Virus record (IMG/VR): IMGVR_UViG_3300045257_000201
Coordinates: 1-38,690 of that record
Direction: 5' to 3' (one strand)
Origin: a virus
DNA: 38,690 nt
Shown: piece after piece, positions 1-38,690 of the stretch
Position numbering within the stretch: position 1 is the first letter of the stretch
Layout of the letters: every line of letters starts with the position of its first letter
The notes under the pieces: model-generated
Seen by the model: only the letters and a program-made list of their open reading frames with translations
Database searches by the model: none
Told to the model about the DNA's origin: nothing
Translations under genes and position numbers: made by a program

Positions 1-115
1 AGCCACGGCTGTAACAGGGCAGAATAAAGTTACGGTTCCCGTTCCAATTGCCTACCCTAATGTGGTTAATCAGAATATCATTGTAGACCAGGGCATCTAT
101 ATTTGGAGTGGTGGT
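1..115. repeat. Terminal direct repeat, left copy
   Basis: These 115 bases are identical to 38576-38690. The repeat lies inside one continuous reading frame (the last fibre gene), which closes perfectly when the two ends are merged. The simplest reading is a circular or circularly permuted genome whose contig ends overlap, giving 38,575 unique bases. A true short terminal repeat cannot be excluded from sequence alone. Confidence 0.95.
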
Positions 116-184
116 GTAACGCCATTTGCAACAGGGGATGGGACGTTAGATGTTTACTTAACTTATCAGACAATAACTATTTAA
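2..184 (+). CDS. C-terminal end of fibre-like protein split by the contig ends
   Basis: This open frame has no start here. It is the continuation of the gene that begins at 37956: that gene ends in frame at base 38690 and resumes at base 116, giving a protein of 268 residues in total. The last 23 residues (from base 116) are unique to this end and finish with a TYQTITI tail, like the TIVTTTA and SVITTTA tails of the small paralogues at 31965 and 32429. It is therefore the C-terminal part of a virion fibre or decoration subunit. A good ribosome site (AAGGAGAG) for the next gene overlaps its stop. Confidence 0.9.
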   Translation, partial: ATAVTGQNKVTVPVPIAYPNVVNQNIIVDQGIYIWSGGVTPFATGDGTLDVYLTYQTITI

Positions 185-2398: not shown

Positions 2399-3196
2399 CT
2401 ATTCTCCAATATTTGATATCTTTTCTGCTAGTTTATCTGACTGGCTTTGTATGTCGATAACGTTTGAATCCTCATCATCAAGCCCAAATTCCTTAAGTGC
2501 AGATTTTAGATTTTGATCTCCGTATTCTGCTTTTTCGTCTAACTCCATAGCTATTATTGTTTCTATTGAAGAAGGTGCTGTCTTGAATAATCGTCTAATC
2601 ACGGTCTTTTTAGCCATCTCTTCGTAATAATTAATCCACGGCTTTGAATTTCTTCCAGGGCTCTTTGATCTAATTTTATCAACTTCTTCTACAGACATCA
2701 TTTCGTATTGAAAATATCCGTTCTTCATAATTACGATAGCAAAAACACCCAATAAATCCCCTCTGTCTGACCACTTTCTTACATGCTTTATATGGGGTGT
2801 TGATCCATCTTCAAATTCGAAGAGATCGTTTGAGTATACGCAGGCTGATTTTATTGAAAATACGTCAGGCGACCTTCTTATTAGGTCGAGCATACCGCGA
2901 TATCCAAGCATAAGTGTAATCTCTCCATTAAAGGGAACTAAATAAACTTTCCCTAGAACAGATCCAATCTCAAGTCCCATTTGAGCAATTCGGAGTATAC
3001 CACCACAAATTGATTTAGGACAACAACTATTTAAAGCTGGGTTGTTTTTTAATTCAGATATAGCAGACATGATAGATCTATCTGCAGACATCTCATTTGG
3101 AAGTATCTTTTCCAAATATGGCTTCATTTTCATGAGTCGATCTAAAGCTGGAATCTCAATGCTATTATTAGAATTTGCGCCTGTTGTCATTGTCAT
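2399..3196 (-). CDS. recT: RecT-family single-strand annealing protein
   Basis: The 265-residue product shows the RecT family core: an N-terminal helical part, the block GLEIGSVLGKVYLVPF followed by the LGYRGMLDL motif (about residues 75-105), and the later motif KPWINYYEEMAKKTVIRRL (about 185-203). RecT-type proteins coat single-stranded DNA left by an exonuclease and anneal it to complementary strands. The upstream gene, 2 bases away, encodes the matching YqaJ-type exonuclease, so the two form a standard phage recombination pair. The start at 3196 follows AGAAGG in the end of the exonuclease gene; a second ATG at 3190 is possible. The C-terminal tail is acidic, as is common in the family. 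Confidence 0.93.
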   Translation of the reverse strand: MTMTTGANSNNSIEIPALDRLMKMKPYLEKILPNEMSADRSIMSAISELKNNPALNSCCPKSICGGILRIAQMGLEIGSVLGKVYLVPFNGEITLMLGYRGMLDLIRRSPDVFSIKSACVYSNDLFEFEDGSTPHIKHVRKWSDRGDLLGVFAIVIMKNGYFQYEMMSVEEVDKIRSKSPGRNSKPWINYYEEMAKKTVIRRLFKTAPSSIETIIAMELDEKAEYGDQNLKSALKEFGLDDEDSNVIDIQSQSDKLAEKISNIGE

Positions 3197-3198
3197 TT

Positions 3199-4116
3199 TT
3201 ACTGCCCTTCTTGTTTAATTAAAAATCTTCTAGATGCTGAACATTCTTTTACGTATTTTGAATATTCTCTTTCGTTATCTTCCTTAAACCGTGTAGCGTC
3301 AAACCTTTTTGTCGGCTTAGATGCTTTCCATATAACTGCTATTTTACCTGATAAATCCAGCAAAGTGTCCTTTTCACCCATGAAAACTTTAATTTTATCT
3401 TCAAGATCTTTCTTCGTCTTCGACATCCTATCTTCCTCCAATCTTATGTCCCTTAAGTTAATTAGAAGCTCACTTATCTCTCCAGTTGCTACCAAGCTTT
3501 CCTCTATGGATTTATATCCATGTAAGCTTATAACCTCTTGGCCGCTTAGGATTCTTGGGGGGTAATTTTTTTTTACACACTCCCAAAACTCCTGTTGTTT
3601 TCTGATAAGCATTTCTTCGAGCTTCATATTACGCTCAATTACATAAAATCTAAAGTCAGTCCCTCGGATCAAAACTGCAACATAAGCCTTTTTTACGTCA
3701 CAAACCGCCATATAATGGGCCACCTGGCATAAATAATGGTCAGGAATATTCCCGGTTCCGCTTTCTCCCCACCCATAATCGTATGAGGATGTCTTAGCTT
3801 CGAATATAGCATCCGTTCCTACCCATCCATCAATGTGACCAGCCATGAATGGAATTTTATCGTGCACGATCAACCTTTCATCCGTAGTCACCTTAAGACC
3901 TGTTTCTGCCTCGAACCAAGAACGTACAGCTGGCTCTAGAAAGTTTCCAGCCTTTATACACGCTTTATGGGATATATCCTTAGGAGTAATCTGTCGTGTT
4001 TTCTCCTGCCAAAGCTCAATATGATTTGCATATGGTGATACTCCACATATCACCGCTGCATCCGAACCGCATATATAGTTCAATCTTTCGTTGAGTTGAT
4101 TTTGGCTTAGGCTCAT
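3199..4116 (-). CDS. YqaJ-type phage exonuclease
   Basis: The 305-residue protein carries the YqaJ/lambda-exonuclease-like nuclease core: the G-SDAA-ICGVSPY block (about 17-28), the GNFLEP motif with its Glu (about 57-62), the GHIDG Asp (about 93-97), the EAKT motif (about 106-109) and the YLCQVAHYM helix (about 127-135). These residues form the metal-binding site of 5'-3' double-strand exonucleases that feed RecT-like annealases. A helical C-terminal region of about 100 residues follows. The start at 4116 overlaps the end of the membrane protein gene by 4 bases (ATGA). Confidence 0.92.
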   Translation of the reverse strand: MSLSQNQLNERLNYICGSDAAVICGVSPYANHIELWQEKTRQITPKDISHKACIKAGNFLEPAVRSWFEAETGLKVTTDERLIVHDKIPFMAGHIDGWVGTDAIFEAKTSSYDYGWGESGTGNIPDHYLCQVAHYMAVCDVKKAYVAVLIRGTDFRFYVIERNMKLEEMLIRKQQEFWECVKKNYPPRILSGQEVISLHGYKSIEESLVATGEISELLINLRDIRLEEDRMSKTKKDLEDKIKVFMGEKDTLLDLSGKIAVIWKASKPTKRFDATRFKEDNEREYSKYVKECSASRRFLIKQEGQ

Positions 4117-9717: not shown

Positions 9718-9991
9718 AACTAGGATAGAAGAAATAGACCACGTCTCAAAGGCGCATGAAATAAATAATGAGCTGGCCAAGTGCTTTGAAGAGCTTAAAG
9801 AAGTGTGTGCATGCCTTCCTGAGTGGATCATTACAGAAGATGAAGATACCGAAATTATGAATAACGTTGCTGAATGTTATGAAAATGAAGATGTAATTCT
9901 ACCTCCTCCTGAAATGGTGGAGTTCTTAGAATATAAATTAAAGTGCGTACAAGAAATGTTAGTTCTAATGAAAAGAAAGGCAACGCATTAA
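9710..9991 (+). CDS. Hypothetical acidic protein (93 aa)
   Basis: The ATG at 9710 lies inside the end of the 32-residue frame, with GGCGGAG upstream. The product is acidic, with a helical N-terminal third (CFEELKEVCACLPEWI), an acidic middle and a final helix with LEYKLKCVQEMLVLMKRK. Its stop overlaps the start of the sigma-like gene by one base. It could be a partner of that protein, but this is inferred only from the tight coupling. Confidence 0.55.
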   Translation: MSETRIEEIDHVSKAHEINNELAKCFEELKEVCACLPEWIITEDEDTEIMNNVAECYENEDVILPPPEMVEFLEYKLKCVQEMLVLMKRKATH

Positions 9992-10698
9992 TGTCTAGGG
10001 AGATGAATGACCAAAATCTTGGTGACCCAGGACTTGAAGTATTCTATAAGTGGCTCAATAACTTTAAGTCACGATTCGGAAAAGATATGTTCATAGAAGA
10101 TGTCGCCGAAATAACAGGCCTTAATGAGAGAGAGATTCATATCCTATTGCTCCGGTATGAGAGTGATACAAAACTTAGAATGACTCTGGAGAATGTTGCC
10201 AATCATTTCAGCATAGGAAGAGAAAGAGTAAGACAGATTATATGTAAAGCCCTTAGAAAGCTTAGACAGCCCAGTAGACAAGAAGAATTGAGAGAATTTT
10301 TAAACGAAAAGGAAGCGAAAATGACCAAAGAAGAAGCAATTAGAGAGCTAGCTAGAAAACTATCAGAGCCTGAAAAGAAAACAGACTTTGCAAAGTATCA
10401 TAACGAACCAACAAGAGAAGCAATACTTGAACTTTCAGACGATAAAGATTCAATCATTGCCAAATCTGAGCTAGTTAATATGATATGTAAGGCAATAGAT
10501 TCAACAATCCAAGGCTCAGGATGCTGGGATATCTTGTTTAGCATTAAACATAACGGTCCATTTGACGCCTCAGATGAAGCACACAAAAGACGTCAAGATG
10601 CATATGACGAGCAACAAAAGATTAGGCAGGCATTTAAAGATGGTGTGGCCGCAATTGAGGCTGAGTATAGCGATAAGGAAAATTCTGAGGTGCATTAA
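9991..10698 (+). CDS. Sigma-70 region 4-like transcription protein
   Basis: I place the start at ATG 9991, not the GTG at 9943. Residues about 64-93 (MTLENVANHFSIGRERVRQI then CKALRKLRQ) match the helix-turn-helix of sigma-70 region 4.2, which contacts the -35 box. Region 2, which binds the -10 box and core polymerase, is missing. The first 60 residues are helical and could hold a region-4.1-like part (ERE-I-HILLLRYE). The C-terminal half (100-235) is unlike sigma factors. Such region-4-only proteins may redirect host RNA polymerase to phage middle or late promoters. Confidence 0.75.
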   Translation: MSREMNDQNLGDPGLEVFYKWLNNFKSRFGKDMFIEDVAEITGLNEREIHILLLRYESDTKLRMTLENVANHFSIGRERVRQIICKALRKLRQPSRQEELREFLNEKEAKMTKEEAIRELARKLSEPEKKTDFAKYHNEPTREAILELSDDKDSIIAKSELVNMICKAIDSTIQGSGCWDILFSIKHNGPFDASDEAHKRRQDAYDEQQKIRQAFKDGVAAIEAEYSDKENSEVH

Positions 10699-18494: not shown

Positions 18495-18501
18495 ATTGAA
18501 A

Positions 18502-19746
18502 ATGGCAACGAATATCCTACAGCAGGTTATTACTTATAACGAGAGTAACCTCGCTTTACTTTTAAACTCATTTTGCTTCTTAAGCACCTCAAATAAAAAG
18601 TTTGTCGGCTTTAATGATGACATCCCTAAGAATCTCGGCGACACAGTTAGCTTTGATTTACCTCCTCGTTTTACCACTACGAACTCACTGGTTGTAACAT
18701 TCCAGCCTGCTGTTCAGCGTGTACAGAACTTGACGGTTAACCAACAAGCCTCAACCGCGTATGAGTTCACTGCCCAACAATTCATATTTAACGTTCGCGA
18801 TTATATGAAAACTTTTGGTAAGTCTGCTGTAGCTGAATTAGGTACTCAAGTTGAGTCCAACATTGCACAGTTAGCAGAAACTAATACTTTCCGTTTCTAC
18901 GGTGATGGTATTAATCCAATCAACTCATATTTACAGCTTGCAAATGCTTTAGCCTTCTTCCGTAACTTCGGTGCGGCTCCAACAGATACAGTAGGCTATT
19001 TATCTGATTTAACTTTCCCTTTAATCGTAAACTCAGGTTTGAATCAATTCACACTTGACCGCGGTAATCGTGAAGCTATGTCATGGGAAATTGGTAACTT
19101 CAGCAAATGCGAATGGTATCAATCTAACCTTTTAAAGACTCACACTTCAGGAACAGAAGGTAATGCTGGCTCTACATTGACTGTAGTATCAACAACTCTT
19201 GATGCCAATGGTGCTGTTATTACAATTACGTTCTCAGGCACTAATGCTGCTAATGACGTGAACTCAATTAAAGCTTACGATAAGTTCCAGTTTAGTGATG
19301 GTGTTTCAGGTCAGCCTGACATGAGATTCTTAACCTTTATCGGACATAAGCAATCTCAATCTCCTGTTCAGTTTCGCGCAACAGCTGATGCCACATCAAC
19401 GGCTGGCTCACAAGTAACGGTTAGTATTTTCCCACCCTTGCAAGCTCCTGCTGGAAACTCTCAAAATATTAACAACCCAATCGTTGCTGGTATGCAGGTA
19501 ACTGTTCTTCCAAGCCATAGATGCGGTTTGATTATGTCAGGCGACCCTCTCTTCTTGGCAATGCCAAAACTTCCTGACGAGGTTCCTTACCCAACAAGTG
19601 CGATGACTGACCCAAATTCAGGCGCAAGCTTACGTCAATACTACGGTTCTTTATTTGGTCAAAACCAAAGAGGGATGGTTCACGACGTTATATGGGGAAG
19701 CACCTTGGTAGATGAATACGCAATGATGGTAGCTTTACCGTTATAA
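18502..19746 (+). CDS. Major coat protein, P22-like
   Basis: The 414-residue protein follows the scaffold and is close to P22 coat in length (430). The first residues (MATNILQQVITYNESN) and NLGDTVSFDLPPRF correspond to the N-arm and E-loop region, and the spine-helix area contains QVESNIAQLAETNTF. A beta-rich insert at about 215-310 (SGTEGNAGSTLTVV, then VSGQPDMRFLTF) is where P22 has its I-domain, and the C-terminal part has SHRCGLIMSGDPLFLAMPKL. The ATG at 18502 is used; a TTG at 18496 is not needed. Codon use is even and typical of a highly expressed gene. Confidence 0.88.
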   Translation: MATNILQQVITYNESNLALLLNSFCFLSTSNKKFVGFNDDIPKNLGDTVSFDLPPRFTTTNSLVVTFQPAVQRVQNLTVNQQASTAYEFTAQQFIFNVRDYMKTFGKSAVAELGTQVESNIAQLAETNTFRFYGDGINPINSYLQLANALAFFRNFGAAPTDTVGYLSDLTFPLIVNSGLNQFTLDRGNREAMSWEIGNFSKCEWYQSNLLKTHTSGTEGNAGSTLTVVSTTLDANGAVITITFSGTNAANDVNSIKAYDKFQFSDGVSGQPDMRFLTFIGHKQSQSPVQFRATADATSTAGSQVTVSIFPPLQAPAGNSQNINNPIVAGMQVTVLPSHRCGLIMSGDPLFLAMPKLPDEVPYPTSAMTDPNSGASLRQYYGSLFGQNQRGMVHDVIWGSTLVDEYAMMVALPL

Positions 19747-25009: not shown

Positions 25010-26708
25010 AATATTTGAACTTCCAAATGGAATAGAACTAGAACTACCAGATGACATGCCAGAAGATGAAGTATTAAGGGCAGTTAATCAATTTACAGCT
25101 CAAAATAAAATGCCTGATCAAAAAGGACCATTGGGATATGAAAATCCAGAAGACATTGGAAGAGCCGAAGGTGGTAAAAGACTGTTGAAAGGCCTATCAG
25201 AGTATGGTCCTGAACTAGCAGCATCTGCTTTAGTCCCAGAAGTTCCAGTTATAGGGGCTTTATCAAAAATTCCAGCCTTAGCAAAAGCTTTTCAAAGTAT
25301 GCCAAGATTAGCAAAATATAGTCAATCTATATTTGGTAATGCTTTATCTCAAGGTGGAGTTGCAGCAGCATTTAATCCAAGTACAGCAAAAGAAAGCGCT
25401 ACGACAGCTGGCTCAATAGCTGGCCCAATATCAGGAGTTGCTCAGTTAGCTCAATCTGCTCATCCTGGAGCTAGAATGGCTGGAAGGCTCGGTCTTGGCG
25501 CAGCAACTGGAGGACTATCAGGGTTATTAGCTCAGAATTCCCCTTTTGGAGGATATGCGGCTCTTCCGGCTGCATTAGGAGGGGCATATTTAGGATTCAA
25601 AGGCGGACCAACAGCAAGATTCCAAAAAGACTTAAGATCAGGACTTGAGGGGGCCGAATATAAACCAGCTATGGAAGCGGCAGAAAGGCTTGGTTTGGAT
25701 TATTTATCTCCTGCAGAAGCTTCTGGAAATCCATTTCTAGGTGCTCAACAAGGCAATATTGGTAGAACACCTGAAGGCGCTCAAGAGTTATATAAGCGTG
25801 GCCAGTCTAGATTAGAATCAGAGGGTAAGTCTATCCAGGATTTATTTAAGAATATTTTTAATCCAGAAGAGCAAAAAGGACTTATGAAGGATCTATACAA
25901 AGAATCCTATGAGCATAAAGTTCCAAAAGAGTTTTCAGACAAAATAAGTCAAAACGAAATTGTCAAAAGAGCAAAATCTTTAGTAGAAGGAAATCCGGCA
26001 TTTAAAGAGCAATTAAAAGGCGTCGATAAAAATAGCCTTGAATACTGGGATTTAATAAAACGTGCATTGGATGATATGTCTACAAGAGCATCCTCAAAAT
26101 CCTCAAAGAATGAGGCGCGTTTAATTACGGGTGCTAGAAAAGATGTATTGAAAGAACTTGATAAAGTTGAGCCGTATAAAGATGCTAGATACTTATCTGA
26201 ACGAGAAAAGACTAGAGAAGGAATAGAAAAGGCATTTAATAAAAAAGAAATGACGGGCATGAACATGTACAACGTACTCAAGGATAAAAATAAATTTGAT
26301 AAGCTTCAAAAAAATCTTCGTGGAGTTCCTGATGCTCAAAAGAGACTAGATGATATGCGCGTGGCATTTAAAAATATTATAACCGTCCCAACCGCCAGAA
26401 CAGCAAGCGCATTAGAAAAAACAAGCATGACGAAGCCTCGTAATGATGTTGGGTCTATGATGATTACTTTAAAAGAAGCATTAACTGCTGGGAAGTTTGA
26501 TAAGGACGCCGTTGAACTACTAACAAATCCTAAATGGGAAAAACAATTAGATGATTTAGCGAATAAAGCTACACCAACTGAAAAAAGAATATCTAAGTTT
26601 ATAGATTTACTTGGAAAAGTAGGCGCTCAAGGTATGGCAAAAGATGTTTTAAATATTAACATCCCATACAATTTACCAGCAAATGAAGCAGAGGGAGCTC
26701 AACAATAA
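25002..26708 (+). CDS. Probable internal virion / ejection protein (568 aa)
   Basis: It starts with GTG at 25002, with GGAG nine bases upstream, overlapping the previous stop by 8 bases. The N-terminus (ELPNGIELELPDDMPEDEVL) has the short pattern seen at the start of several phage virion proteins. A long Ala/Gly-rich part with weakly hydrophobic helices (about 60-195) is followed by LSPAEASGNPFLGAQQGNIG, a block common to phage injection proteins, and a helical C-terminus. It is the third ejection candidate (gp16-like by position). No lytic transglycosylase motif is visible. Confidence 0.65.
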   Translation: MPKIFELPNGIELELPDDMPEDEVLRAVNQFTAQNKMPDQKGPLGYENPEDIGRAEGGKRLLKGLSEYGPELAASALVPEVPVIGALSKIPALAKAFQSMPRLAKYSQSIFGNALSQGGVAAAFNPSTAKESATTAGSIAGPISGVAQLAQSAHPGARMAGRLGLGAATGGLSGLLAQNSPFGGYAALPAALGGAYLGFKGGPTARFQKDLRSGLEGAEYKPAMEAAERLGLDYLSPAEASGNPFLGAQQGNIGRTPEGAQELYKRGQSRLESEGKSIQDLFKNIFNPEEQKGLMKDLYKESYEHKVPKEFSDKISQNEIVKRAKSLVEGNPAFKEQLKGVDKNSLEYWDLIKRALDDMSTRASSKSSKNEARLITGARKDVLKELDKVEPYKDARYLSEREKTREGIEKAFNKKEMTGMNMYNVLKDKNKFDKLQKNLRGVPDAQKRLDDMRVAFKNIITVPTARTASALEKTSMTKPRNDVGSMMITLKEALTAGKFDKDAVELLTNPKWEKQLDDLANKATPTEKRISKFIDLLGKVGAQGMAKDVLNINIPYNLPANEAEGAQQ

Positions 26709-28922: not shown

Positions 28923-29279
28923 ATGGCAACACCATACATTGCTCAACAAACCGTAACCGACTTCGGACTTAGGTTCGCTGACTTAAAATATAGCGCCAAA
29001 TTGGCGATTACGACCGATACAACCTTAACAATTCCAGGAAATGCCCCGAAATATAAGGCTTTATTTAAATGTGTCGCGGGAGGCGAGGTCTGGGTTGCCC
29101 TAAATGCAACCGCTGCTGCAACTGCAGGCACAACTTTCGCTGCAAGCACATCTGAAATGCTAACAGGCGAATATTATATTTGTCGGGAAGTAAAAGCAGG
29201 AGATGTTGTTCATTTCTTCAGCACTACAGCCACAACGGATGTAAGTGTTATACTTTATGCATTAGGAACGAATAACTAG
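28923..29279 (+). CDS. Hypothetical virion protein (118 aa)
   Basis: The product is Thr/Ala-rich and beta-patterned, with LTIPGNAPKYKALFKC, GGEVWVALNATAAA and a closing DVSVILYALGT, which suggest a small jelly-roll-like fold. AAAGGA precedes the ATG. Similar proteins accompany fibre genes in other phages, possibly as decoration or fibre-tip parts. No name can be assigned. Confidence 0.6.
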   Translation: MATPYIAQQTVTDFGLRFADLKYSAKLAITTDTTLTIPGNAPKYKALFKCVAGGEVWVALNATAAATAGTTFAASTSEMLTGEYYICREVKAGDVVHFFSTTATTDVSVILYALGTNN

Positions 29280-29297
29280 TAACACTAGGGGGCCAGG

Positions 29298-30515
29298 ATG
29301 GCTGATATTAAGTTTTCACAATTTGCAGCAGGCGGAAACGTTAAAGTCGGTGACATAGTTGTCGGCCTTAGAGATGCTGATAATGCGAAATTCACATTTC
29401 CAGGAACCGGATTTTCCGATGCTGATGGAAATTTCATTCTTGGATACTCCACATCTGGAGGAGGATCTATAAATCATCTATTTATAGAGAATGCAGCAGC
29501 TACTTTTGCACCCGAGCTTTCTGCAAGGGGAACAGATACAAATATAGATCTGCAAATATCCAGCAAGGGAACGGGAAGCGTCCTAGTAAATACCCTTGAT
29601 ATAGATTCAGTCGGAAATATTTCGGGAATTGTCTCTGCAATTTTTCCGGGTTCTTCAAGTGGGTCGGCAACATTGTTAGCCCAGGCAGCTGCTGGAACTC
29701 CAACCTTGCAACTTCCAAATACATCCGGGATATTGGCTCTTGCAAGCGCAATCCCAGCATTACCTCTTTCCTTGGCAAATGGCGGGACTGGGGCATCTTT
29801 GACGGCTAGCAATGGGGGCATCTTTTATTCCAATGCAACGACTGGGGCTATATTGTCTGGAACGGCTACGGCAGACCGGGTTCTACTCTCTGGAAGCTCC
29901 TCAGCGCCATCATGGAGCGTTACAACTTATCCAAGCACCACAACAATTAACCGACTTCTATATAGCTCATCAAATGATGTGGTTGGCCAAGTTACGGCCG
30001 CCAATAGCGCAGTCCTAGTAAGTGGTTCAACAGGTGTTCCTGTCTGGTCAAATACTATGACAAACGGCCAGATTATAATTGGATCAACAGGTGCTCAACC
30101 TCAAGCAGCATCTATAACGGCTGGAGCAGGAATATCAATTACACCAGGCGCCGCATCATTAACTATCGCCGCAACAGCTGGTGGTGGTGGGCTTGTCTGG
30201 TCAACTATAGCAGGAACATCACAATCAGCGACGGTCAATACGGGCTGGATCCCACAGAATGTTGGACTCACTACTATCACATTACCGTCTACCGCTGCAA
30301 TTGGTTCATTTGTCTCAATACAAGGGCAAGGTTCTGGAGGTTGGTTAATAGATGCTCCAGGAACTCAAATAATTCGAATTGGATCCTCGCCAACTAGCGC
30401 GGGGGGGACGGTATCTTCAGCAAATAGATATGATGCTATAACTCTAGTATGCATAGTGGCAGATACTGAATGGGCAATGTACGGACCAGTTTCGTCCGGT
30501 TTTGTGATTACTTAA
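29298..30515 (+). CDS. Fibre protein with Gly-Gly-Thr-Gly repeats (405 aa)
   Basis: The N-terminus (MADIKFSQFAAGG, VKVGDIVVGLRDADNAKF) is a known type of fibre attachment segment. The shaft contains LANGGTGASLTASNGGIFYS, a common trimeric fibre repeat. The last about 105 residues (TTITLPSTAAIGSFVSIQGQ onward to DAITLVCIVADTEWAMYG) form a head domain that recurs in the next gene at clear similarity. It is probably one subunit of the host-binding apparatus. Confidence 0.75.
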   Translation: MADIKFSQFAAGGNVKVGDIVVGLRDADNAKFTFPGTGFSDADGNFILGYSTSGGGSINHLFIENAAATFAPELSARGTDTNIDLQISSKGTGSVLVNTLDIDSVGNISGIVSAIFPGSSSGSATLLAQAAAGTPTLQLPNTSGILALASAIPALPLSLANGGTGASLTASNGGIFYSNATTGAILSGTATADRVLLSGSSSAPSWSVTTYPSTTTINRLLYSSSNDVVGQVTAANSAVLVSGSTGVPVWSNTMTNGQIIIGSTGAQPQAASITAGAGISITPGAASLTIAATAGGGGLVWSTIAGTSQSATVNTGWIPQNVGLTTITLPSTAAIGSFVSIQGQGSGGWLIDAPGTQIIRIGSSPTSAGGTVSSANRYDAITLVCIVADTEWAMYGPVSSGFVIT

Positions 30516-30525
30516 GGGATTAAAA

Positions 30526-31965
30526 ATGGCAAATAATAGTTTAAATAATGACAGTGTCCCATTAGTTCCTGATTTTGGCGGGACTGGTATAGCAAATGTT
30601 GGAACAATAACGGTAGGTGGCAACACGGAATTCTCCGGAGCCTTTACCTTTGTCGGAACTTTAACAGGTAATACAGCGGTTACTTTTCCTACATCTGGTA
30701 CCCTAGCTACTACATCTGGTGCTTCAGGTATCGTTAATGCGGGAACGGGAAACCAAATAACATACTATGCGACAACCGGGAATGCGGTTTCAGGGCTTGC
30801 CGGAGCTAATGGTTCTGTCTTGGTAACTGACAACACTGGCGTCCCATCGATGCTAGCTAATCCAGCTGCAACGGGTAGAGTACTCCAATCAGCAAATGGC
30901 AATATCCCATTCTGGTCTACTCCGAGTTACGCTAATACTTATGCCGTTTCTACTCTTTTGTATGCAAGTTCATCTGACACAGTGACTGGGTTAGCCACAA
31001 CAAACAGAGCCTCGCTCTCAACTAATTCAACGGGCGTACCAACTTGGCTTGCTTTAACTGACGGTCAGGTTGTCGTTGGAAGCTCAGCTGGAAGTCCGGC
31101 TGCTGCATCTTTAACGGCAGGGACTGGTATTAGTATTACGCCTGGATCAAACAGCATAACCATTGCAAATACCGGAGGCTCTGGAACTGTAAATAACGGA
31201 ACGGCAAATCAAATTGGATATTATGCAACCACTGGAACTGCTATATCTGGCCTTACTGGCTCAAATGGATCTGTACTGGTAACTAATAACACAGGTGTTC
31301 CATCGATGCTAGCTAATCCGACCGCAGACGGTAGACATTTAACATCTGCTAATGCTGCTATTCCTTTATGGTCAACGTCAAGCTATGCAGATACATTTGG
31401 CGTCTCTACCATTTTGTATGCCAGCTCAGCAAATACAGTAACTGGTTTGGCTACTACAAATAGAGCATCACTTTCTACAAATTCTACTGGAGTGCCCACT
31501 TGGCTTGCGTTGACAGATGGTCAGATTGTAGTCGGAAGTAGCGCAGGAAGTCCCGCAGCCGCATCATTAAGCGCAGGAACGGGTATTAGTATCACTCCAG
31601 GGTCTAACAGCATATCGATTGCTGCAACGGGCGTATCTGGCATTACATGGGCCAATATTTCAGGAACAACCCAAACAGCAGCAGTTAATACAGGATATGT
31701 CGTAGGAAATGCAAGCCAAACTACAATTACTCTCCCAACTACAGCGGCACTGGGGTCAGTTGTTATAGTTCAAGGTAAGGGAGCAGGCGGATTTATACTT
31801 GCTGCCGGAGCAGGACAGACAATACAAGTGGGTCAGTCAGCAACCTCAACAGCAGGGTCGGTAACATCCGCTGCTAATTATGATGCCATTCAGGTGGTGT
31901 GTATTACGGCAAATACGACATGGGCCACATCATATGTTCTCAGCTCAGGCGTTACGGTAGCTTAA
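30526..31965 (+). CDS. Fibre protein with a duplicated 145-aa shaft module (479 aa)
   Basis: After an N-terminal part with FGGTGIANVGTITVGGN, a module of about 145 residues occurs twice in tandem (about 72-219 and 222-367; landmark NNTGVPSMLANP, then NRASLSTNSTGVPTWLALTD). A third copy is in the 33355 gene. The C-terminal 105 residues match the head of the 29298 product. The module boundaries and the shared head show repeated shuffling among these genes. No enzyme motif is seen. Confidence 0.78.
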   Translation: MANNSLNNDSVPLVPDFGGTGIANVGTITVGGNTEFSGAFTFVGTLTGNTAVTFPTSGTLATTSGASGIVNAGTGNQITYYATTGNAVSGLAGANGSVLVTDNTGVPSMLANPAATGRVLQSANGNIPFWSTPSYANTYAVSTLLYASSSDTVTGLATTNRASLSTNSTGVPTWLALTDGQVVVGSSAGSPAAASLTAGTGISITPGSNSITIANTGGSGTVNNGTANQIGYYATTGTAISGLTGSNGSVLVTNNTGVPSMLANPTADGRHLTSANAAIPLWSTSSYADTFGVSTILYASSANTVTGLATTNRASLSTNSTGVPTWLALTDGQIVVGSSAGSPAAASLSAGTGISITPGSNSISIAATGVSGITWANISGTTQTAAVNTGYVVGNASQTTITLPTTAALGSVVIVQGKGAGGFILAAGAGQTIQVGQSATSTAGSVTSAANYDAIQVVCITANTTWATSYVLSSGVTVA

Positions 31966-32420
31966 TGGCAGTTAATACGCAACTAAATACAGCCACAGTT
32001 CCATTATCCATTTTTAAAAGTGTGGTTAACGTATCGTCGGCTCAAATATTGTCTATGTATACAACTCCAGTACTTCTAGTTCCAGCTCAGGGGTCTCATA
32101 AATTTATCTTCGTTCATGATGTCTTTGTTGAATATGCTCGTGGTGCTACTTCTTATTCAAACGGAAGTGGCGTTTCATTTCAATATGGGAATGCAGGATC
32201 AGATACTTCAACAACAATATTTATGAGCTCAAATATTGATTTAACTGGAGCGGCGAGTGATTTTGCCGGAGATCCTGTAATTCCTTTTACAACGTTTGGA
32301 TCATTGAGTGACTGGTTAAACCAAGGAATCTATGTAGGAACCAGCGTTAACAGCTTTATTAATGGTGATGGAACGTTAAGGATTGAAGTTTTTTATACTA
32401 TTGTAACTACTACGGCTTAG
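31965..32420 (+). CDS. Small fibre-tip or decoration protein, paralogue A (151 aa)
   Basis: I place the start at ATG 31965, which overlaps the previous stop, rather than an upstream frame. The pattern is shared with the next two genes: a short N-terminal peptide (MAVNTQLNTATVP), SSAQILSMYTTPVLLVPAQG, FVHDVFVEY and a TIVTTTA end. Its first about 36 bases are nearly identical to those of paralogue B, showing recent duplication. The same body is fused to other domains in the 37956 gene. Confidence 0.72.
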   Translation: MAVNTQLNTATVPLSIFKSVVNVSSAQILSMYTTPVLLVPAQGSHKFIFVHDVFVEYARGATSYSNGSGVSFQYGNAGSDTSTTIFMSSNIDLTGAASDFAGDPVIPFTTFGSLSDWLNQGIYVGTSVNSFINGDGTLRIEVFYTIVTTTA

Positions 32421-32428
32421 AGGAAAAA

Positions 32429-32887
32429 ATGGCAGTTAATACGCAACTAAATACAGCTACAGTCCCTAGCCCCGTTTTTACAACTACGGTTACTTTGTCA
32501 TCGGCAGACATACAATCAATGTATACAGCTGGAATCGTTTTAATTGCAGCTCAAGGCACTCATACTGTTGTTATGGTTCATGATGTATTTTTTGAATATA
32601 TTTTTGTTACAACAGAATATATAGATGGAGATCTGCCTCAAATCTCCTATGGAATTCTTAATGCGGACTTCAACATAACTCCTATTATGATTTTATCAAA
32701 TCTTTTCGTTACTACTGAAAGCCAGTTTTACCAAACGAATGGGGCTGATACTGGAGGGGTGATTCTTGCATCTCTTGGATGTGTTAATACAGGAGTCTAT
32801 ATATCAAATTATTCTGCTAATTTTAGCGGTGGCGATTCAACGGCAAAAATAACATTAACTTATTCTGTGATAACTACTACGGCTTAA
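32429..32887 (+). CDS. Small fibre-tip or decoration protein, paralogue B (152 aa)
   Basis: It has the same layout as paralogue A: MAVNTQLNTATVP, SSADIQSMYTAGIVLIAAQG, MVHDVFFEY, and the SVITTTA end. The middle of the protein differs strongly (more acidic and aromatic), so diversification is concentrated there. AGAGGAAAAA precedes the ATG. Probably a trimeric beta domain on the tail or head surface. Confidence 0.72.
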   Translation: MAVNTQLNTATVPSPVFTTTVTLSSADIQSMYTAGIVLIAAQGTHTVVMVHDVFFEYIFVTTEYIDGDLPQISYGILNADFNITPIMILSNLFVTTESQFYQTNGADTGGVILASLGCVNTGVYISNYSANFSGGDSTAKITLTYSVITTTA

Positions 32888-32889
32888 TT

Positions 32890-33342
32890 ATGACAATAAA
32901 TACTCAAATAAACTCAACCATAGAATATTTAAAGTCTACGGTAACCCTTTCATCGGCTAACCTTAAAGCTATGTATGCCACTCCGGTTTTGATGATTCCA
33001 GCTCAAGGTGCTCACACAATTATCGTTATTCATGATGTTTTTTATGAGCTTGTTTATACTGCTCCTGCTTATACTGGTGGCAATAGTGGACAGATAGTTC
33101 TTCAATATGGAAATACAGCTCATGCAGGAAGTTCTAATTACGCCAATCTTTCAGGAACACTTCTTATTGTAAATGCGAATTATATTAATGTTGGACTAGA
33201 GATAAACAATAACTTAACGGGCGCTATAAGCGGAATTATAAATACGGCCATATATGCATCAAATGTTACATCGGCTTATGCCACAGGAAATGGATTGGTC
33301 AATTGCACCATGTTTTATTCAATTATAAACACGATTAGTTAA
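32890..33342 (+). CDS. Small fibre-tip or decoration protein, paralogue C (150 aa)
   Basis: The third tandem copy: MTINTQINSTIE, SSANLKAMYATPVLMIPAQG, VIHDVFYEL, YSIINTIS end. It starts 3 bases after paralogue B, with no clear ribosome site of its own, so it is probably translated by coupling. The central part again varies from the other two. Confidence 0.72.
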   Translation: MTINTQINSTIEYLKSTVTLSSANLKAMYATPVLMIPAQGAHTIIVIHDVFYELVYTAPAYTGGNSGQIVLQYGNTAHAGSSNYANLSGTLLIVNANYINVGLEINNNLTGAISGIINTAIYASNVTSAYATGNGLVNCTMFYSIINTIS

Positions 33343-33354
33343 GAGGGATAAGTA

Positions 33355-34647
33355 ATGGCAATTGCAAACCAACTAAATACTGCGACAACGCCAATTAGCA
33401 TTCCGGAAGGCGGGACCGGTCAAACAACCAATACAGCCGCTATAAATGCGCTTGTAAGTGCTGCATCTCTAACTACAGCCACGGTGGCAACGGATGATTT
33501 GGTCCTTATACAAGATACAAGTGATTCAAATAACTTAAAGAGTGTGACAACCCAATCAATTGCCAACCTTGCTGTATCAGGGGTAACAAGCGTATCCGGG
33601 ACGACCAATAGGATAACCTCAACTGGAGGATCAACTCCGGTTATAGATATCTCGGCTTCGTATGTTGGTCAAAGCTCAATAACTACATTGGGAACCATTT
33701 CTAGCGGTGTTTGGGGCTCAAGTGCCACAGTTATTGGGGCTTCAAGTGGGGGGACTGGCGTTGCAAATACGGGGACGATTACAGTTGGTGGAAATACAGC
33801 GTTTTCTGGAGCCTTTACATTTACAGGGACCATTACTGGAAATACTGGGGTCACCTTTCCAACTAGTGGAACCTTACAAACAACTACCGGGGCGTCAGGT
33901 ACGGTTAACTCTGGAACGGCTAATCAAATAGCTTATTACGCTACAACGACGAACGCGGTTTCAGGATTAACGGGCGCAAATGGATCAGTGCTTGTCACAA
34001 ACAATACTGGTGTGCCATCTATGTTAGAAAATCCTGGAGCAGCTGGACGTGTTTTTCAGTCTGCTAATGCTGCTATTCCCGTCTGGTCTACTTCAAGTTA
34101 TGCTGATACGTATGCTGTGTCAACGATTCTATATGCTAGTTCTGCCAATACAGTGACTGGGTTAGCCACAACAAATAGAGCCTCGCTCTCAACTAATTCA
34201 ACAGGGGTTCCAACTTGGTTAGCCTTAACAGATGGCCAGGTGGTTGTAGGCAGTTCAGCTGGGAGTCCAGCAGCAGCGACAATTACAGCAGGTTCTGGAA
34301 TAACGGTTACCAATGCATCTAATGCGATAACGATAGCCGCAACAGCTGGTTCGGTTAGTGGTGCGGCAAAGTTTTGGCTTCTTGCAGCAGGGGCTGGAAC
34401 ATCAATCACGGCTAGCTTTAATGTTACGAGCATTACAGATGTAGGGGCAGGGTTATTAGATGTCACAATTGCTACTGACTTTTCTAGTGCAAACTGGGTA
34501 GGATTTTCTTCTACTGTGTCTGCAGAAGCAACAACAAGATGTTATTTCTCTGCAAGAGCGGCAGGAACGTGTTCTGTTTTTAATTTTAACGGGGCCTCAA
34601 AGGGAGACCCAACAACCTATTCTGTGGCTGGGTTTGGCGATCAATAA
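33355..34647 (+). CDS. Fibre protein with mixed modules (430 aa)
   Basis: This product joins pieces seen elsewhere: an N-terminal tag like paralogues A-C (MAIANQLNTATTP), a GGTGQTTNTAAINAL turn, an ATDDLVLIQDTSDSNNLKSV segment that recurs in the 37956 gene, one copy of the 145-residue shaft module shared with the 30526 gene, and a C-terminal AKFWLLAAGAGTSI domain of about 95 residues that matches the end of the 35111 product. It is a clear product of domain exchange. Confidence 0.78.
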   Translation: MAIANQLNTATTPISIPEGGTGQTTNTAAINALVSAASLTTATVATDDLVLIQDTSDSNNLKSVTTQSIANLAVSGVTSVSGTTNRITSTGGSTPVIDISASYVGQSSITTLGTISSGVWGSSATVIGASSGGTGVANTGTITVGGNTAFSGAFTFTGTITGNTGVTFPTSGTLQTTTGASGTVNSGTANQIAYYATTTNAVSGLTGANGSVLVTNNTGVPSMLENPGAAGRVFQSANAAIPVWSTSSYADTYAVSTILYASSANTVTGLATTNRASLSTNSTGVPTWLALTDGQVVVGSSAGSPAAATITAGSGITVTNASNAITIAATAGSVSGAAKFWLLAAGAGTSITASFNVTSITDVGAGLLDVTIATDFSSANWVGFSSTVSAEATTRCYFSARAAGTCSVFNFNGASKGDPTTYSVAGFGDQ

Positions 34648-34659
34648 TTGGAGAGTTTA

Positions 34660-35100
34660 ATGAGACATTTAATAAAAAAGAAAGACGGTTCGGTGGCGAT
34701 TATGACAACAGTTTCGGATGACATCGATCCTTCAGATGAATTTTTAAAATGGAGCCAGGAGGCGAATGACGAAATAGAATCTCATCGCCCAATGGAAGAA
34801 TCCGAAATTCCACAAGATAGGTATTTTAGAGGTGCTTGGATCCATAAGGATGATTCCATAGATGTAGATATTGATAAAGCAAAAAATATTCATAGGGACG
34901 TTATACGGGAACTTAGAAAGCCATTATTAGAAGCATTAGATATTGAATTTACTAGGGCATCTGAATCTAAAGATGAATCTAAAATGAAAGAATTAATAGA
35001 TAAGAAGAATGCATTGCGAGATGTAACTCAACATTCTATTCTTTTAAACGCTTCGACGCCAGAAGAAATAAAATCTTTTATGCCTGAAATTCTAAAATAA
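34660..35100 (+). CDS. Fibre assembly chaperone-like protein (146 aa)
   Basis: I choose ATG 34660 (GGAGAG upstream) over the TTG at 34648. The product is charged and helical. FRGAWIHKDDSIDVDIDKAK, then RELRKPLLEALDIEFTRA and KKNALRDVTQ follow the pattern of phage tail-fibre assembly proteins that carry a RxAW segment, a DMxKAxxI helix and a LLxALDxEyxRA helix. Such proteins help nearby fibres fold and trimerise. It sits in the middle of the fibre genes. Confidence 0.7.
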   Translation: MRHLIKKKDGSVAIMTTVSDDIDPSDEFLKWSQEANDEIESHRPMEESEIPQDRYFRGAWIHKDDSIDVDIDKAKNIHRDVIRELRKPLLEALDIEFTRASESKDESKMKELIDKKNALRDVTQHSILLNASTPEEIKSFMPEILK

Positions 35101-35110
35101 GAGGGTTACT

Positions 35111-36487
35111 ATGCCAGTTTTAAGCTATCAAATTAATTCCCCTGGCCAAGGCGGCGTTAATCCTAAGATTACATATATTTTCACGAATGATCCCGTTGCA
35201 GTTGTGACCCAGACAGGATATATAGATTGGCTAGCTAATCCTCAAGGAATTTATCCTGGAGACATAGCTTTGGTTGTTACGCGAGAAACTCCAACATCTA
35301 CTTTAGGTGCGGGATTTTATGAGTTTGTTCGAGTTGGAATGGGACCACATTGGGATTTGATTCCAGAAAATGGGTCTGCTGCAAACGTAAACTCAGTAGT
35401 TGGAACCCCTGACCAAACTGTAGCCTTTCCTAGCACGGGAAATGTTGTTATTTCAATTGCAGATAGTCCACACCTTCCAGGAACAGGATCTGTTGGTCTT
35501 CCAAAAGGCACAACGGCAGAACAATCAGGTATAGATGGATCTATAAGATTTAATACTCAGACTCTATTGTTTGAAGCAACAAAAGATGGGGTTGTCTGGG
35601 AAACGATACAAACAGACACAAACACAGTTACAAGTATATCGGGAACTACGAACCAAATTATTGCGTCTGCCTCAGTTGGAGATGTCGTTATTTCTATAGA
35701 TCCAGACCCTAGATTGCCTGGAACGGGATCTGTAACATTACCTAGCGGAACTACTGCTGAGCAGGCCGGTATTGCAGGGTCTATAAGATTTAATACTCAA
35801 ACATTGGTCTTTGAAAGCACAAAAGATGGCATTGTGTGGGATGTAATAGAAAGTAGTGGAACAGGCGTAATGAGTGTTTCTGGAACGACAAACAGAATTA
35901 CATCTACAGGTGGTGCGACTCCAGTTATAGACATTGCAGCAACATATGTCGGGCAAACCTCAATTACAACCTTGGGAACAGTGGCAACAGGAGCCTGGAA
36001 TGCAAGCACAATATCTGTCCCATTCGGAGGTACAGGTAATACAACTTTCACACCTTACTCATTGATAACGGCTAATACGACGGGAACTGGGGCGTTGCAA
36101 CCCCTTTCATCCTTGGGGACATCCGGGCAAGTTTTGACCTCAAATGGAGCTGGGGCATATCCAACCTGGCAGGCAGCTGGAGGTGGCGGGGGGAGTGGTT
36201 CTTCACAGTTTTGGGTAGAAACAAATGGAGCAGGAACATCCATATTAACCTCATATAATGTATCTAGCATTGTTGATAATGGAACAGGTAATTTAACGGT
36301 TATCTTTACAACACAATTTGCAACATCAAACTACGTTGTAAACGTTAGCACGTTTAGACTTGGAAACGGATACAATCCTGCTATTATAGGACAATCAGCA
36401 ACTCAGGTTAACGTTGCAAATAATAATGGTTCTGGACTATTTACAGATCCAACTAGATGGTATGTGTGTGGTTTTGGGGTTCAATAA
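35111..36487 (+). CDS. Fibre protein with internal repeat (458 aa)
   Basis: The N-terminal 85 residues (MPVLSYQINSPGQGGVNPKI) match those of the 36746 and 37956 products and are probably the attachment domain. A segment of about 60 residues occurs twice (landmark LPGTGSVTLPSGTTAEQAGI, then GSIRFNTQTLVFE). A GGTG turn, a glycine linker and a C-terminal FWVETNGAGTSI domain follow, the last shared with the 33355 product. Probably a trimeric fibre subunit. Confidence 0.78.
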   Translation: MPVLSYQINSPGQGGVNPKITYIFTNDPVAVVTQTGYIDWLANPQGIYPGDIALVVTRETPTSTLGAGFYEFVRVGMGPHWDLIPENGSAANVNSVVGTPDQTVAFPSTGNVVISIADSPHLPGTGSVGLPKGTTAEQSGIDGSIRFNTQTLLFEATKDGVVWETIQTDTNTVTSISGTTNQIIASASVGDVVISIDPDPRLPGTGSVTLPSGTTAEQAGIAGSIRFNTQTLVFESTKDGIVWDVIESSGTGVMSVSGTTNRITSTGGATPVIDIAATYVGQTSITTLGTVATGAWNASTISVPFGGTGNTTFTPYSLITANTTGTGALQPLSSLGTSGQVLTSNGAGAYPTWQAAGGGGGSGSSQFWVETNGAGTSILTSYNVSSIVDNGTGNLTVIFTTQFATSNYVVNVSTFRLGNGYNPAIIGQSATQVNVANNNGSGLFTDPTRWYVCGFGVQ

Positions 36488-36503
36488 GTTTTTGTGGAGT
36501 TAT

Positions 36504-36731
36504 ATGGCAATAACAATTGTAATAATAACGATATCATTGATTGTTGGAACGGGTGTAATGTTTTATTCGAAAGTTACTCATAAAGATGAGACACAAATAG
36601 AAAAAACAATAGAAACAGTAATTGAAAAACAATTAGAAGGTGCATTAAATTTACCAGATGATTCTTTAAAAGGAAAAATCGATTTCATGGTTCGACCTAT
36701 TGATCAGGAAGACGACAAAAATAAACTATAA
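36504..36731 (+). CDS. Small membrane protein within the fibre genes (75 aa)
   Basis: I start it at ATG 36504, with GTGGAG upstream, not inside the previous gene. One hydrophobic helix (about 2-20, core ITIVIITISLIVG) is followed by a charged helical domain (ETQIEKTIETVIEKQLEG) and an acidic/lysine end. An N-terminal anchor plus a soluble helical domain is the layout of inner-membrane spanins and some holins, so this is one lysis candidate in a genome that lacks obvious lysis genes. Confidence 0.65.
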   Translation: MAITIVIITISLIVGTGVMFYSKVTHKDETQIEKTIETVIEKQLEGALNLPDDSLKGKIDFMVRPIDQEDDKNKL

Positions 36732-36745
36732 AAGGAGAGATAGAC

Positions 36746-37945
36746 ATGCCAATTTTAAGCTTACAAATTAACGAACCCGGACAAGCAGGTGTAAAGCCCG
36801 CGATCGTTAGAATTCAGACGAACGATACATTAGCTGAAGTGCTTGTTACAGGATATCTTGACCATCAATTTGCTGAAAACATTCCTATTCAAAATGGCAT
36901 GATGGCGCTTGTTGAGACTAAGCCAAGTCAAAACTCACCCATAACTCAAAGTAGCTGGTTAGATGTGACATTTGCATCGGGGCGATGGTCATTAACGCCA
37001 ACAGCTGTAGCACCTGGATCAATAACATTACCAACAATCGCAAATCATATTGCTGTCTTTACTGATGTTGCTGGTTCTTTAGCTGAAGATACAAGTGTCG
37101 CAATTAATGGCGGAAATATACAAGCTGGACTTTCCGGAACAGCTGGTTATTTGGCCTCATTTCCATCTGCAGCTTTAAAAGGATCTTTTAGAGTAACGGC
37201 CGTTGCAAATACAGGTGACACCCTAGTTACGCTATCCAATGTGGCTCACGGTCAAGCTTCTGTCTACTCAATTCCAGACGCTGGGAATGCTGTAGGTAGA
37301 ATTTTAGCCGGAGCTAGTGCGACACCTTTTGTAACAAATCATATTTTAACAGCATCTGGAACAGGCGGCGTTGTATCTAATGATGCGGCAACCGCTATAA
37401 ATGGTGGAAATATTCAGGCTGGCTTATCTGGAACGGCTGGCTATCTTGCATCTTTCCCATCAACAGCGTTAAAAGGATCATTTAGAGTGGTTGCTGTGGA
37501 TAACACTGGCGATACATTAGTTACACTTTCTAATGTTGCTCATGGTCAGGCCACGGTTTATAGCATTCCAGATGCAGGTAATGCACTTGGCCGTGTATTG
37601 GTTGGTGCTACCGCAACTCCATTTACAACTGCTCATTTGTTAGCTTCATCTGGAACAGGCGGATTAGTTGCTGATTCAGGTATAGCCACAGCTGCAGTTC
37701 AGCTTAGCGCAAATATAAAAGCAGCTACAACTGGAAATATTGGTGGGGCAGGAGCTGGACCGATAACAGTTACCGTTGCAGGATTAACAACAGCATCGGT
37801 CGTGGTTTGCACCATTGAATCATCAAGTAATGCCGTATCGGTTCTTCATGCTACTGCAGGAACAGGTAATTTTGATGTTACTTTCAGTGGTGATCCAGGT
37901 GCAAGCTGCCTTCTAAATTATGTGGCATTTATTGCAGCTCAATAA
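36746..37945 (+). CDS. Fibre protein with 98-aa tandem repeat (399 aa)
   Basis: The N-terminal attachment domain (MPILSLQINEPGQAGVKPAI) is shared with the neighbours. From residue 119 a 98-residue unit (AINGGNIQAGLSGTAGYLAS, ALKGSFRV, NTGDTLVTLSNVAHGQ) is repeated in tandem (37100-37393 and from 37394 to about 37680). The C-terminus is a short beta domain (GPITVTVAGLTTASVVVCTI). AAAGGAGAG precedes the ATG. Copy number variation of this unit would change fibre length. Confidence 0.78.
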   Translation: MPILSLQINEPGQAGVKPAIVRIQTNDTLAEVLVTGYLDHQFAENIPIQNGMMALVETKPSQNSPITQSSWLDVTFASGRWSLTPTAVAPGSITLPTIANHIAVFTDVAGSLAEDTSVAINGGNIQAGLSGTAGYLASFPSAALKGSFRVTAVANTGDTLVTLSNVAHGQASVYSIPDAGNAVGRILAGASATPFVTNHILTASGTGGVVSNDAATAINGGNIQAGLSGTAGYLASFPSTALKGSFRVVAVDNTGDTLVTLSNVAHGQATVYSIPDAGNALGRVLVGATATPFTTAHLLASSGTGGLVADSGIATAAVQLSANIKAATTGNIGGAGAGPITVTVAGLTTASVVVCTIESSSNAVSVLHATAGTGNFDVTFSGDPGASCLLNYVAFIAAQ

Positions 37946-37955
37946 GGAGATTGAA

Positions 37956-38690
37956 ATGCCTATATTAAGTACAAGTTTTAATGATGTTGGGAACGCAGGA
38001 CAGGTTCCCAGCCTTGTCAGAATTGAAACTGATGATAGCTTGGCCACCATTTTAACAGTAGGATATTTGAATGCATTAGATCATCAAAATCTTCCGTTAA
38101 GTGAAAATTCTGTTGTTCTTGTTAGCACTGGAAGCGGTGTTAACAAGTCTGTCTCAGCAATGAGAATGGTTTTTTCTTCTGGTGATTGGAGTTTGGAGCT
38201 GTTGGAAGGATATCAGGAATCGTTAGATGATTTAACTCTTTCTGCAGCTACTCCAGCTACAAATGATAAAATCTTAATACAAGATACAAGCGATTCTGAC
38301 AAACTTAAAACAATTACAGTTCAGCAAGTTTTAGATTTGGTTCCTGGTGGATCTGGTGTTTTTTCTCAGATAAAAACAACGGTAACATCTCCCCAAATTT
38401 TAGATATGTTAAACACGCCTGTCTTGTTAATTCCAGCTCCAGGTGCAGGGAAAATTATTCTTGTAACATCGGTAACATTGATTGGCGTTTTTGGCACGGT
38501 TAACTATACGGCTGGCGATGTTCTTGCTGTTTCATACGATGGTTTTGATGGTATATCATTTTATGAGGAGATTCCAGCCACGGCTGTAACAGGGCAGAAT
38601 AAAGTTACGGTTCCCGTTCCAATTGCCTACCCTAATGTGGTTAATCAGAATATCATTGTAGACCAGGGCATCTATATTTGGAGTGGTGGT
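37956..38690 (+). CDS. Fibre-like fusion protein, runs across the contig ends (268 aa in full)
   Basis: The frame is open to the last base and continues at base 116 to the stop at 184. Three parts are visible: the shared attachment domain (MPILSTSFNDVGNAGQVPSL, to about 90), a linker with ATNDKILIQDTSDSDKLKTI as in the 33355 product, and a C-terminal domain with ILDMLNTPVLLIPAPGAG like paralogues A-C. It is thus a natural fusion of modules that elsewhere in this locus are separate genes. AAGGAG precedes the ATG. Confidence 0.85.
   Translation, partial: MPILSTSFNDVGNAGQVPSLVRIETDDSLATILTVGYLNALDHQNLPLSENSVVLVSTGSGVNKSVSAMRMVFSSGDWSLELLEGYQESLDDLTLSAATPATNDKILIQDTSDSDKLKTITVQQVLDLVPGGSGVFSQIKTTVTSPQILDMLNTPVLLIPAPGAGKIILVTSVTLIGVFGTVNYTAGDVLAVSYDGFDGISFYEEIPATAVTGQNKVTVPVPIAYPNVVNQNIIVDQGIYIWSGG
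38576..38690. repeat. Terminal direct repeat, right copy
   Basis: Identical over 115 bases to the first 115 bases of the window. Merging the copies restores one continuous fibre gene, so these bases should be counted only once. Confidence 0.95.

Follow-up and report, generated by a model that had tools for sequence, protein, structure and literature searches.

An array of mosaic fibre genes, probably for virion-surface display, in an uncultured podovirus

Phage tail fibres and spikes are already known to be mosaic in their domains, with related proteins joining shared parts to non-homologous parts (Smug et al., 2023, PMC10684548). The same type of mosaicism is found in the fibre locus (positions 28923-38690) of IMGVR_UViG_3300045257_000201, a complete IMG/VR virus record from an uncultured phage. 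The whole record, 38,690 bp, is called the window here, and its genes are named by their first positions. Slots A to F are gene positions along the locus that are kept in close relatives. Compared with the mosaicism described previously, many paralogous slots of one genome share and swap heads, and one head type also occurs in capsid decoration proteins. The locus probably encodes an array of virion-surface display proteins in which the bases are fixed and the heads are exchanged between slots and genomes. It is best read as a display kit on the tail, the capsid or both.

Other described systems resemble the locus in part. Orf16 of PDB entry 9EG4 is similar to the slot F protein of the window in its TPVLL domain, in module order and in length (269 versus 267 amino acids), and its N-terminal domain is probably related to the MPxLS base of slot F via phrog_18004 and proteins of contig L042. 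However, orf16 is present 7:7 with capsid protein and its L042 relative adjoins the capsid gene, whereas the window genes lie in the tail and fibre region and also carry shafts and other heads. The Phage_cement_2 (PF09956) proteins of contigs L050 and L051 have the same TPVLL C-terminal head as the window, but on a cement base unlike the MPxLS, NTQLN, DIKF or slot-B bases. P22/Sf6-type podoviruses have similar head and packaging genes (portal phrog_156, Sf6-like small terminase). In contrast to these phages, no P22-like tailspike was recognised in the locus, and the window portal is just 21-25% identical to the nearest known-phage portals among the records listed. As far as the analysis reaches, the phage group, the domain set, a gene-splitting event and the head domain in common with capsid decoration proteins appear to be new.

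Heads and bases in related genomes

A scan with the head-closure protein gave 22 viral contigs, with identities of 57 to 78% among twelve that were aligned. In the fibre regions of eight long relative records, modules were labelled by means of window-derived profiles. The same slots are present in three close relatives, which are G004, G006 and G008 (71-74% identity in head closure and 59-60% in the 26708 protein). In the core tree, with distant relatives as outgroup, the window lies outside (G006,(G004,G008)). Besides slot E, five more distant relatives keep only slot-A-like genes.

The heads differ from genome to genome in most slots. In slot A, the window and G004 have a shaft and a GASA head, G006 has GASA but no shaft, and G008 has a shaft with a TPVLL head. 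Slot B ends in GASA in the window and G006 and in TPVLL in G004, and is absent from G008. For slot C, the window and G004 each have three single TPVLL genes (C1, C2 and C3); G006 has one longer gene there, and G008 has none. Slot D has a phrog_11355 head in the window and a TPVLL head in all three close relatives. Slot F has TPVLL heads behind differing middles in the window, G006 and G008, and a GASA head in G004. Slot E is the sole slot with one constant head; its base and head are of one type throughout the nine genomes.

Slots A, B, D and F contain mosaic fibre proteins, with a homologous part beside non-homologous parts. The slot D bases of the window and G004 are 93% identical, while their heads (phrog_11355 versus TPVLL) are non-homologous. 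In the GASA tree, the slot-F head of G004 falls inside the slot-B clade (support 97/97); its grouping with slot A of the same genome was rejected (p-AU 6e-6 in the approximately unbiased test). The same test also rejected a single origin for the TPVLL heads of the three slot F genes (p-AU 0.016). An account by old paralogy and divergence only, with heads never exchanged, agrees with the stability of slot E and with C1-C3, which have 1:1 orthologs in G004 (domain identity 61%, 69% and 70% respectively) and are for that reason taken to be old paralogs. The slot D heads and the place of the G004 slot-F head speak against such an account, which is very improbable overall and, barring misassembly, is refuted for slots B/F and D.

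In G004, slot B is split into two genes. DNA homology between the window and G004 is continuous at 30421-30701, which runs from slot A to the beginning of slot B, and at 31654-33335, from the slot B head through C1-C3. The interior of slot B is mostly two shafts in the window; in G004 its place is taken by 1.56 kb with a partial shaft, a TPVLL head including its stop, and the first part of an MPxLS gene. DNA homology flanks the replaced interior on both sides, and this arrangement suggests how one gene became two in G004, the front half acquiring a new head and the old head a new MPxLS-type base. Slot B is intact in the window, G006 and contig L009, and the window lies outside the other three genomes in the core tree, so that by parsimony the split form is read as derived. 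The new TPVLL head of slot B in G004 may derive from a slot-F head (support 56/81).

Among the four close genomes, the 33355 gene occurs in the window only. It had been described as a fusion in an earlier note on this DNA, and it is indeed a chimera, with a start of the slot-C type, a middle that matches the middle of slot F in G006, and the head of slot D. Shaft identity is 76-83% between 30526 and 33355, versus 57-66% between these and the slot-B shafts of relatives, which fits duplication or homogenisation within the window lineage.

Several points weigh against this reading of exchanged heads. The TPVLL heads of slot B in G004 and slot F in G008 stand on long branches, so that any donor-recipient order among TPVLL heads would be tentative. 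The shared DNA is mostly 64-82% identical; therefore the exchanges are not recent, and their breakpoints can be located only approximately. In addition, the contigs are metagenomic assemblies, which may contain wrong joins.

Each protein has a base at its N-terminus, in some cases repeats or a shaft, and a beta-rich head at its C-terminus. Across the genomes, the bases stay in fixed slots, while the heads change and the shafts vary in number. In the proposed mechanism, the bases would dock on the virion, and heads and shafts would be swapped between slots and genomes by recombination at base, shaft and head boundaries. The heads would be displayed outward, contacting cells or other surfaces in adhesion. 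RecT and a YqaJ recombinase were identified in the window by Pfam, and these enzymes of the phage may permit exchange between diverged copies. In one report on other phages, Rad52-like recombinases are stated to allow exchange between diverged sequences (PMC3945230).

Shared modules and composition controls

Fibres rich in serine, threonine, glycine and alanine could resemble each other by composition bias, without real homology, and the shafts of this locus are rich in few residues. Module homology was tested by pairwise scores against 500 shuffles, with four unrelated module pairs as negatives. Every pair tested but one gave z = 9.5 to 59, with 0/500 shuffles at the observed score; the exception was the short start of 32890 compared with that of 33355 (z = 1.5, 47/500 shuffles), which is not significant alone. 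The unrelated modules of like composition did not match (z -0.3 to 2.0), and orthologs in relatives keep the modules. The earlier note had named composition bias as the result that would undo its list of shared domains. Given the all-against-all similarity and the shuffles, that explanation has practically no probability.

Every recurring part of that list was recovered by module comparison. The MPxLS domain is at the N-termini of 35111, 36746 and 37956, and the NTQLN-type start is found in the expected four genes, 31965, 32429, 32890 and 33355. Two shafts in 30526 and one in 33355, of 153 amino acids each, make up the three copies that had been counted, and a further, diverged copy is present in 29298. 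The TPVLL domain was confirmed in three single genes and in 37956, and the IQDTSDS linker in 33355 and 37956. Besides the TPVLL-bearing genes, two kinds of C-terminal head had been distinguished, whereas module comparison separates four types: GASA (29298 and 30526), phrog_11355-like (33355 and 35111), the 36746 type and TPVLL. In addition, an SGTTNRI element is common to 33355 and 35111. The heads of 33355 and 35111 match phrog_11355, annotated 'tail fiber', and 30526 matches phrog_33126 (function unknown). A Pfam scan of the fibre genes gave no credible family.

The locus had been interpreted as a record of diversification in one genome. Module shuffling stands, and is seen more strongly between genomes than in the window alone; the restriction to one genome is too narrow, the paralogs being old.

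The TPVLL head, the MPxLS base and the capsid

The TPVLL domain is predicted to be a single jelly-roll (predicted local distance difference test, pLDDT, 84.6; predicted template modelling score, pTM, 0.80; monomer model). A Foldseek search of this model against the PDB returned generic jelly-rolls, such as satellite panicum mosaic virus (E 8e-4), with the KHP40 cement protein (7dou, E 4.5e-3) at rank 33. Entry 9EG4 was not among the best 50 matches, in a searched set that possibly does not include it. The TPVLL profile, in contrast, has one solved relative, chain H of 9EG4, which is orf16: residues 137-268 of its 269 amino acids are homologous to the domain (E 7e-25). The entry contains seven orf16 chains and seven chains of 'Phage major capsid protein', and by names and numbers alone this would fit the asymmetric unit of a T=7 capsid with one orf16 per capsid subunit.

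Genes of this kind are found beside capsid genes in other contigs. The L042 capsid protein matches chain A of 9EG4, one of the seven major capsid copies (E 9e-55), and the major capsid gene is directly followed by three genes in tandem (L042:9536-11987), whose products have N-termini of the phrog_18004 type and TPVLL domains. Similarly, Dunaliella viridis virus SI2 (NC_023841) has a gene with a phrog_18004-type N-terminus after its capsid gene, and L048 has a TPVLL gene in that position. In the MPxLS family, 8/17 members match phrog_18004 (best 3e-6). The L042 proteins match it too, and their N-terminus also matches orf16 (independent E value, i-E, 9e-5). The direct match of MPxLS to the orf16 N-terminus is weak (profile E 0.022, hhalign Prob 54%). 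The MPxLS base, phrog_18004 and the N-terminus of orf16 probably form one broader family. Matches to both the MPxLS and TPVLL models were found in three proteins of uncultured phages (A0A6J5N2K8, A0A6J5LH73 and A0A6J5L9E2). MPxLS, which had been called an attachment domain, may dock on the capsid rather than the tail.

The earlier note saw in the locus a record of receptor-binding diversification. On this reading, all of its genes would be tail fibres with host-receptor-binding heads, and the array would be a receptor-binding diversification system. The locus follows tail and injection genes and the 731-aa (amino acid) gene at 26708, the 'tail fiber' family matches two of its heads, and receptor-binding proteins typically swap heads while their bases stay fixed (PMC10684548). 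However, relatives of TPVLL, and probably of MPxLS, are capsid-associated, and the slot E head is unchanged across genomes. This explanation is possible but doubtful. A host-receptor-binding role of the heads is thus no more than a possibility.

Alternatively, the MPxLS and TPVLL proteins of slots C, D, E and F could be capsid decorations or head fibres encoded beside tail fibres, with A and B as the true tail fibres. This is consistent with orf16, which combines a base with TPVLL among the capsid chains of 9EG4, with the genes after the capsid gene in L042 and NC_023841, and with the fusion of TPVLL to Phage_cement_2 in L050/L051; decoration proteins can also aid attachment (PMC7602432). On the other hand, in the phage group of the window some 12-18 kb separate these genes from the capsid gene, and they adjoin tail genes. 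In the window itself, the major capsid gene is at 18496-19746 and is not adjoined by the locus. Furthermore, TPVLL is also found on the slot A and B bases of G008 and G004, so the head type alone does not tell the virion site, and the N-terminal link of MPxLS to orf16 is weak. Assignment of slots C to F to the capsid is likewise possible but doubtful.

For the display array preferred here, gene position and phrog_11355 favour docking on the tail, whereas kinship with orf16 favours the capsid for the MPxLS-TPVLL proteins, whose sole solved relative is on a capsid by the chain names of 9EG4. Decoration proteins have structural features in common with tailspikes, and the initial class given to T5 pb10 was that of a tail protein (PMC7602432). 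It is conceivable, if rather speculative, that a jelly-roll absent from Pfam moves between capsid decoration and tail-fibre-type proteins, one kit serving capsid and tail adhesins with heads exchanged between both sites.

Phage group, neighbouring genes and significance

The first and last 115 bases of the window (1-115 and 38576-38690) are identical, an exact terminal overlap from which the contig is circular, at about 38,575 bp. The 37956 gene is therefore cut only by the window edge and is not truly truncated; in the closed protein, the TPVLL head matches over its full length. The portal, large terminase, head-closure protein (phrog_578), Sf6-type small terminase, DnaB helicase, RecT and YqaJ indicate that the phage is a podovirus with P22/Sf6-type head genes. 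In the known-phage collection, the locus had no DNA match, the fibre genes tested had no protein match, and the orf16 domain was likewise without a match. Relatives of the group (L037, L038, L039 and L040) are binned in metagenome-assembled genomes of Mucilaginibacter, Nitrosotalea, Saccharibacteria and Alphaproteobacteria. These four conflicting bins of unrelated taxa rule out a host assignment from genome contigs, and the phage contigs were most likely binned wrongly.

The features of the locus are listed in Table 1. The 28923 gene, which separates the 26708 gene from the fibre array, is 52-95% identical in relatives, and reaches 95% where the 26708 protein is at 60%. Slots C and D are separated by a gene for a phrog_20196 protein (34660-35100, + strand), which has no counterpart between C3 and D in G004. 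A 76-aa protein with a hydrophobic N-terminal segment (36501-36731, + strand), possibly a lysis gene product, is encoded between slots D and E, as in G004, G006 and G008. Elsewhere, a protein with a sigma-70 region 4 domain and a HEAT-repeat-like stretch slightly below the cut-off (9943-10695, + strand) is a possible phage transcription factor.

Table 1. Fibre-locus features and recombinase genes of the window
Feature	Positions	Strand	Composition or remark	Basis
Conserved 118-aa gene, head of locus	28923..29279	+	No module in common with the rest; no family match	
Slot A fibre, 405 aa	29298..30515	+	DIKF base 29298-29453; shaft 29754-30185; GASA head 30192-30512	Module profiles; conserved in relatives
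Slot B fibre, 479 aa	30526..31965	+	GGTG element 30568-30729; shafts 30724-31182 and 31180-31638; GASA head 31642-31962	Similarity and module profiles
Slot C1, 151 aa	31965..32420	+	NTQLN start; single TPVLL jelly-roll domain (predicted)	Module profiles, structure prediction
Slot C2, 152 aa	32429..32887	+	NTQLN start; TPVLL domain	Module profiles
Slot C3, 150 aa	32890..33342	+	NTQIN start; TPVLL domain	Module profiles
Chimeric fibre, 430 aa	33355..34647	+	NTQLN start 33355-33402; IQDTSDS linker 33466-33576; SGTTNRI element 33580-33717; GGTG 33739-33900; shaft 33895-34353; phrog_11355 head 34363-34644	Module profiles
Slot D, 458 aa	35111..36487	+	MPxLS base 35111-35365; 80-aa tandem repeats 35384-35620 and 35624-35860; SGTTNRI 35864-36001; phrog_11355 head 36200-36484	Module profiles
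Slot E, 399 aa	36746..37945	+	MPxLS base 36746-37000; 98-aa tandem repeats 37028-37333 and 37322-37630; own head 37694-37942	Module profiles
Slot F, 267 aa once closed across the circle	37956..38690	+	MPxLS base 37956-38201; IQDTSDS linker 38235-38345; TPVLL head from 38358	Module profiles
Final 22 codons and stop of 37956 gene	116..184	+	Past the terminal overlap	Circular closure
RecT	2399-3193	-		Pfam
YqaJ recombinase	3202-4116	-	Together with RecT, may drive the exchange of modules	Pfam

With the same slots and different heads, the four close genomes form a readable natural series of head exchange that includes the splitting of a gene. The TPVLL domain is open to testing, as it has no Pfam match yet a solved relative exists. 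If TPVLL does serve both capsid and tail, the adhesive surface of the virion would be built from one kit, linking two groups of proteins that are usually studied apart.

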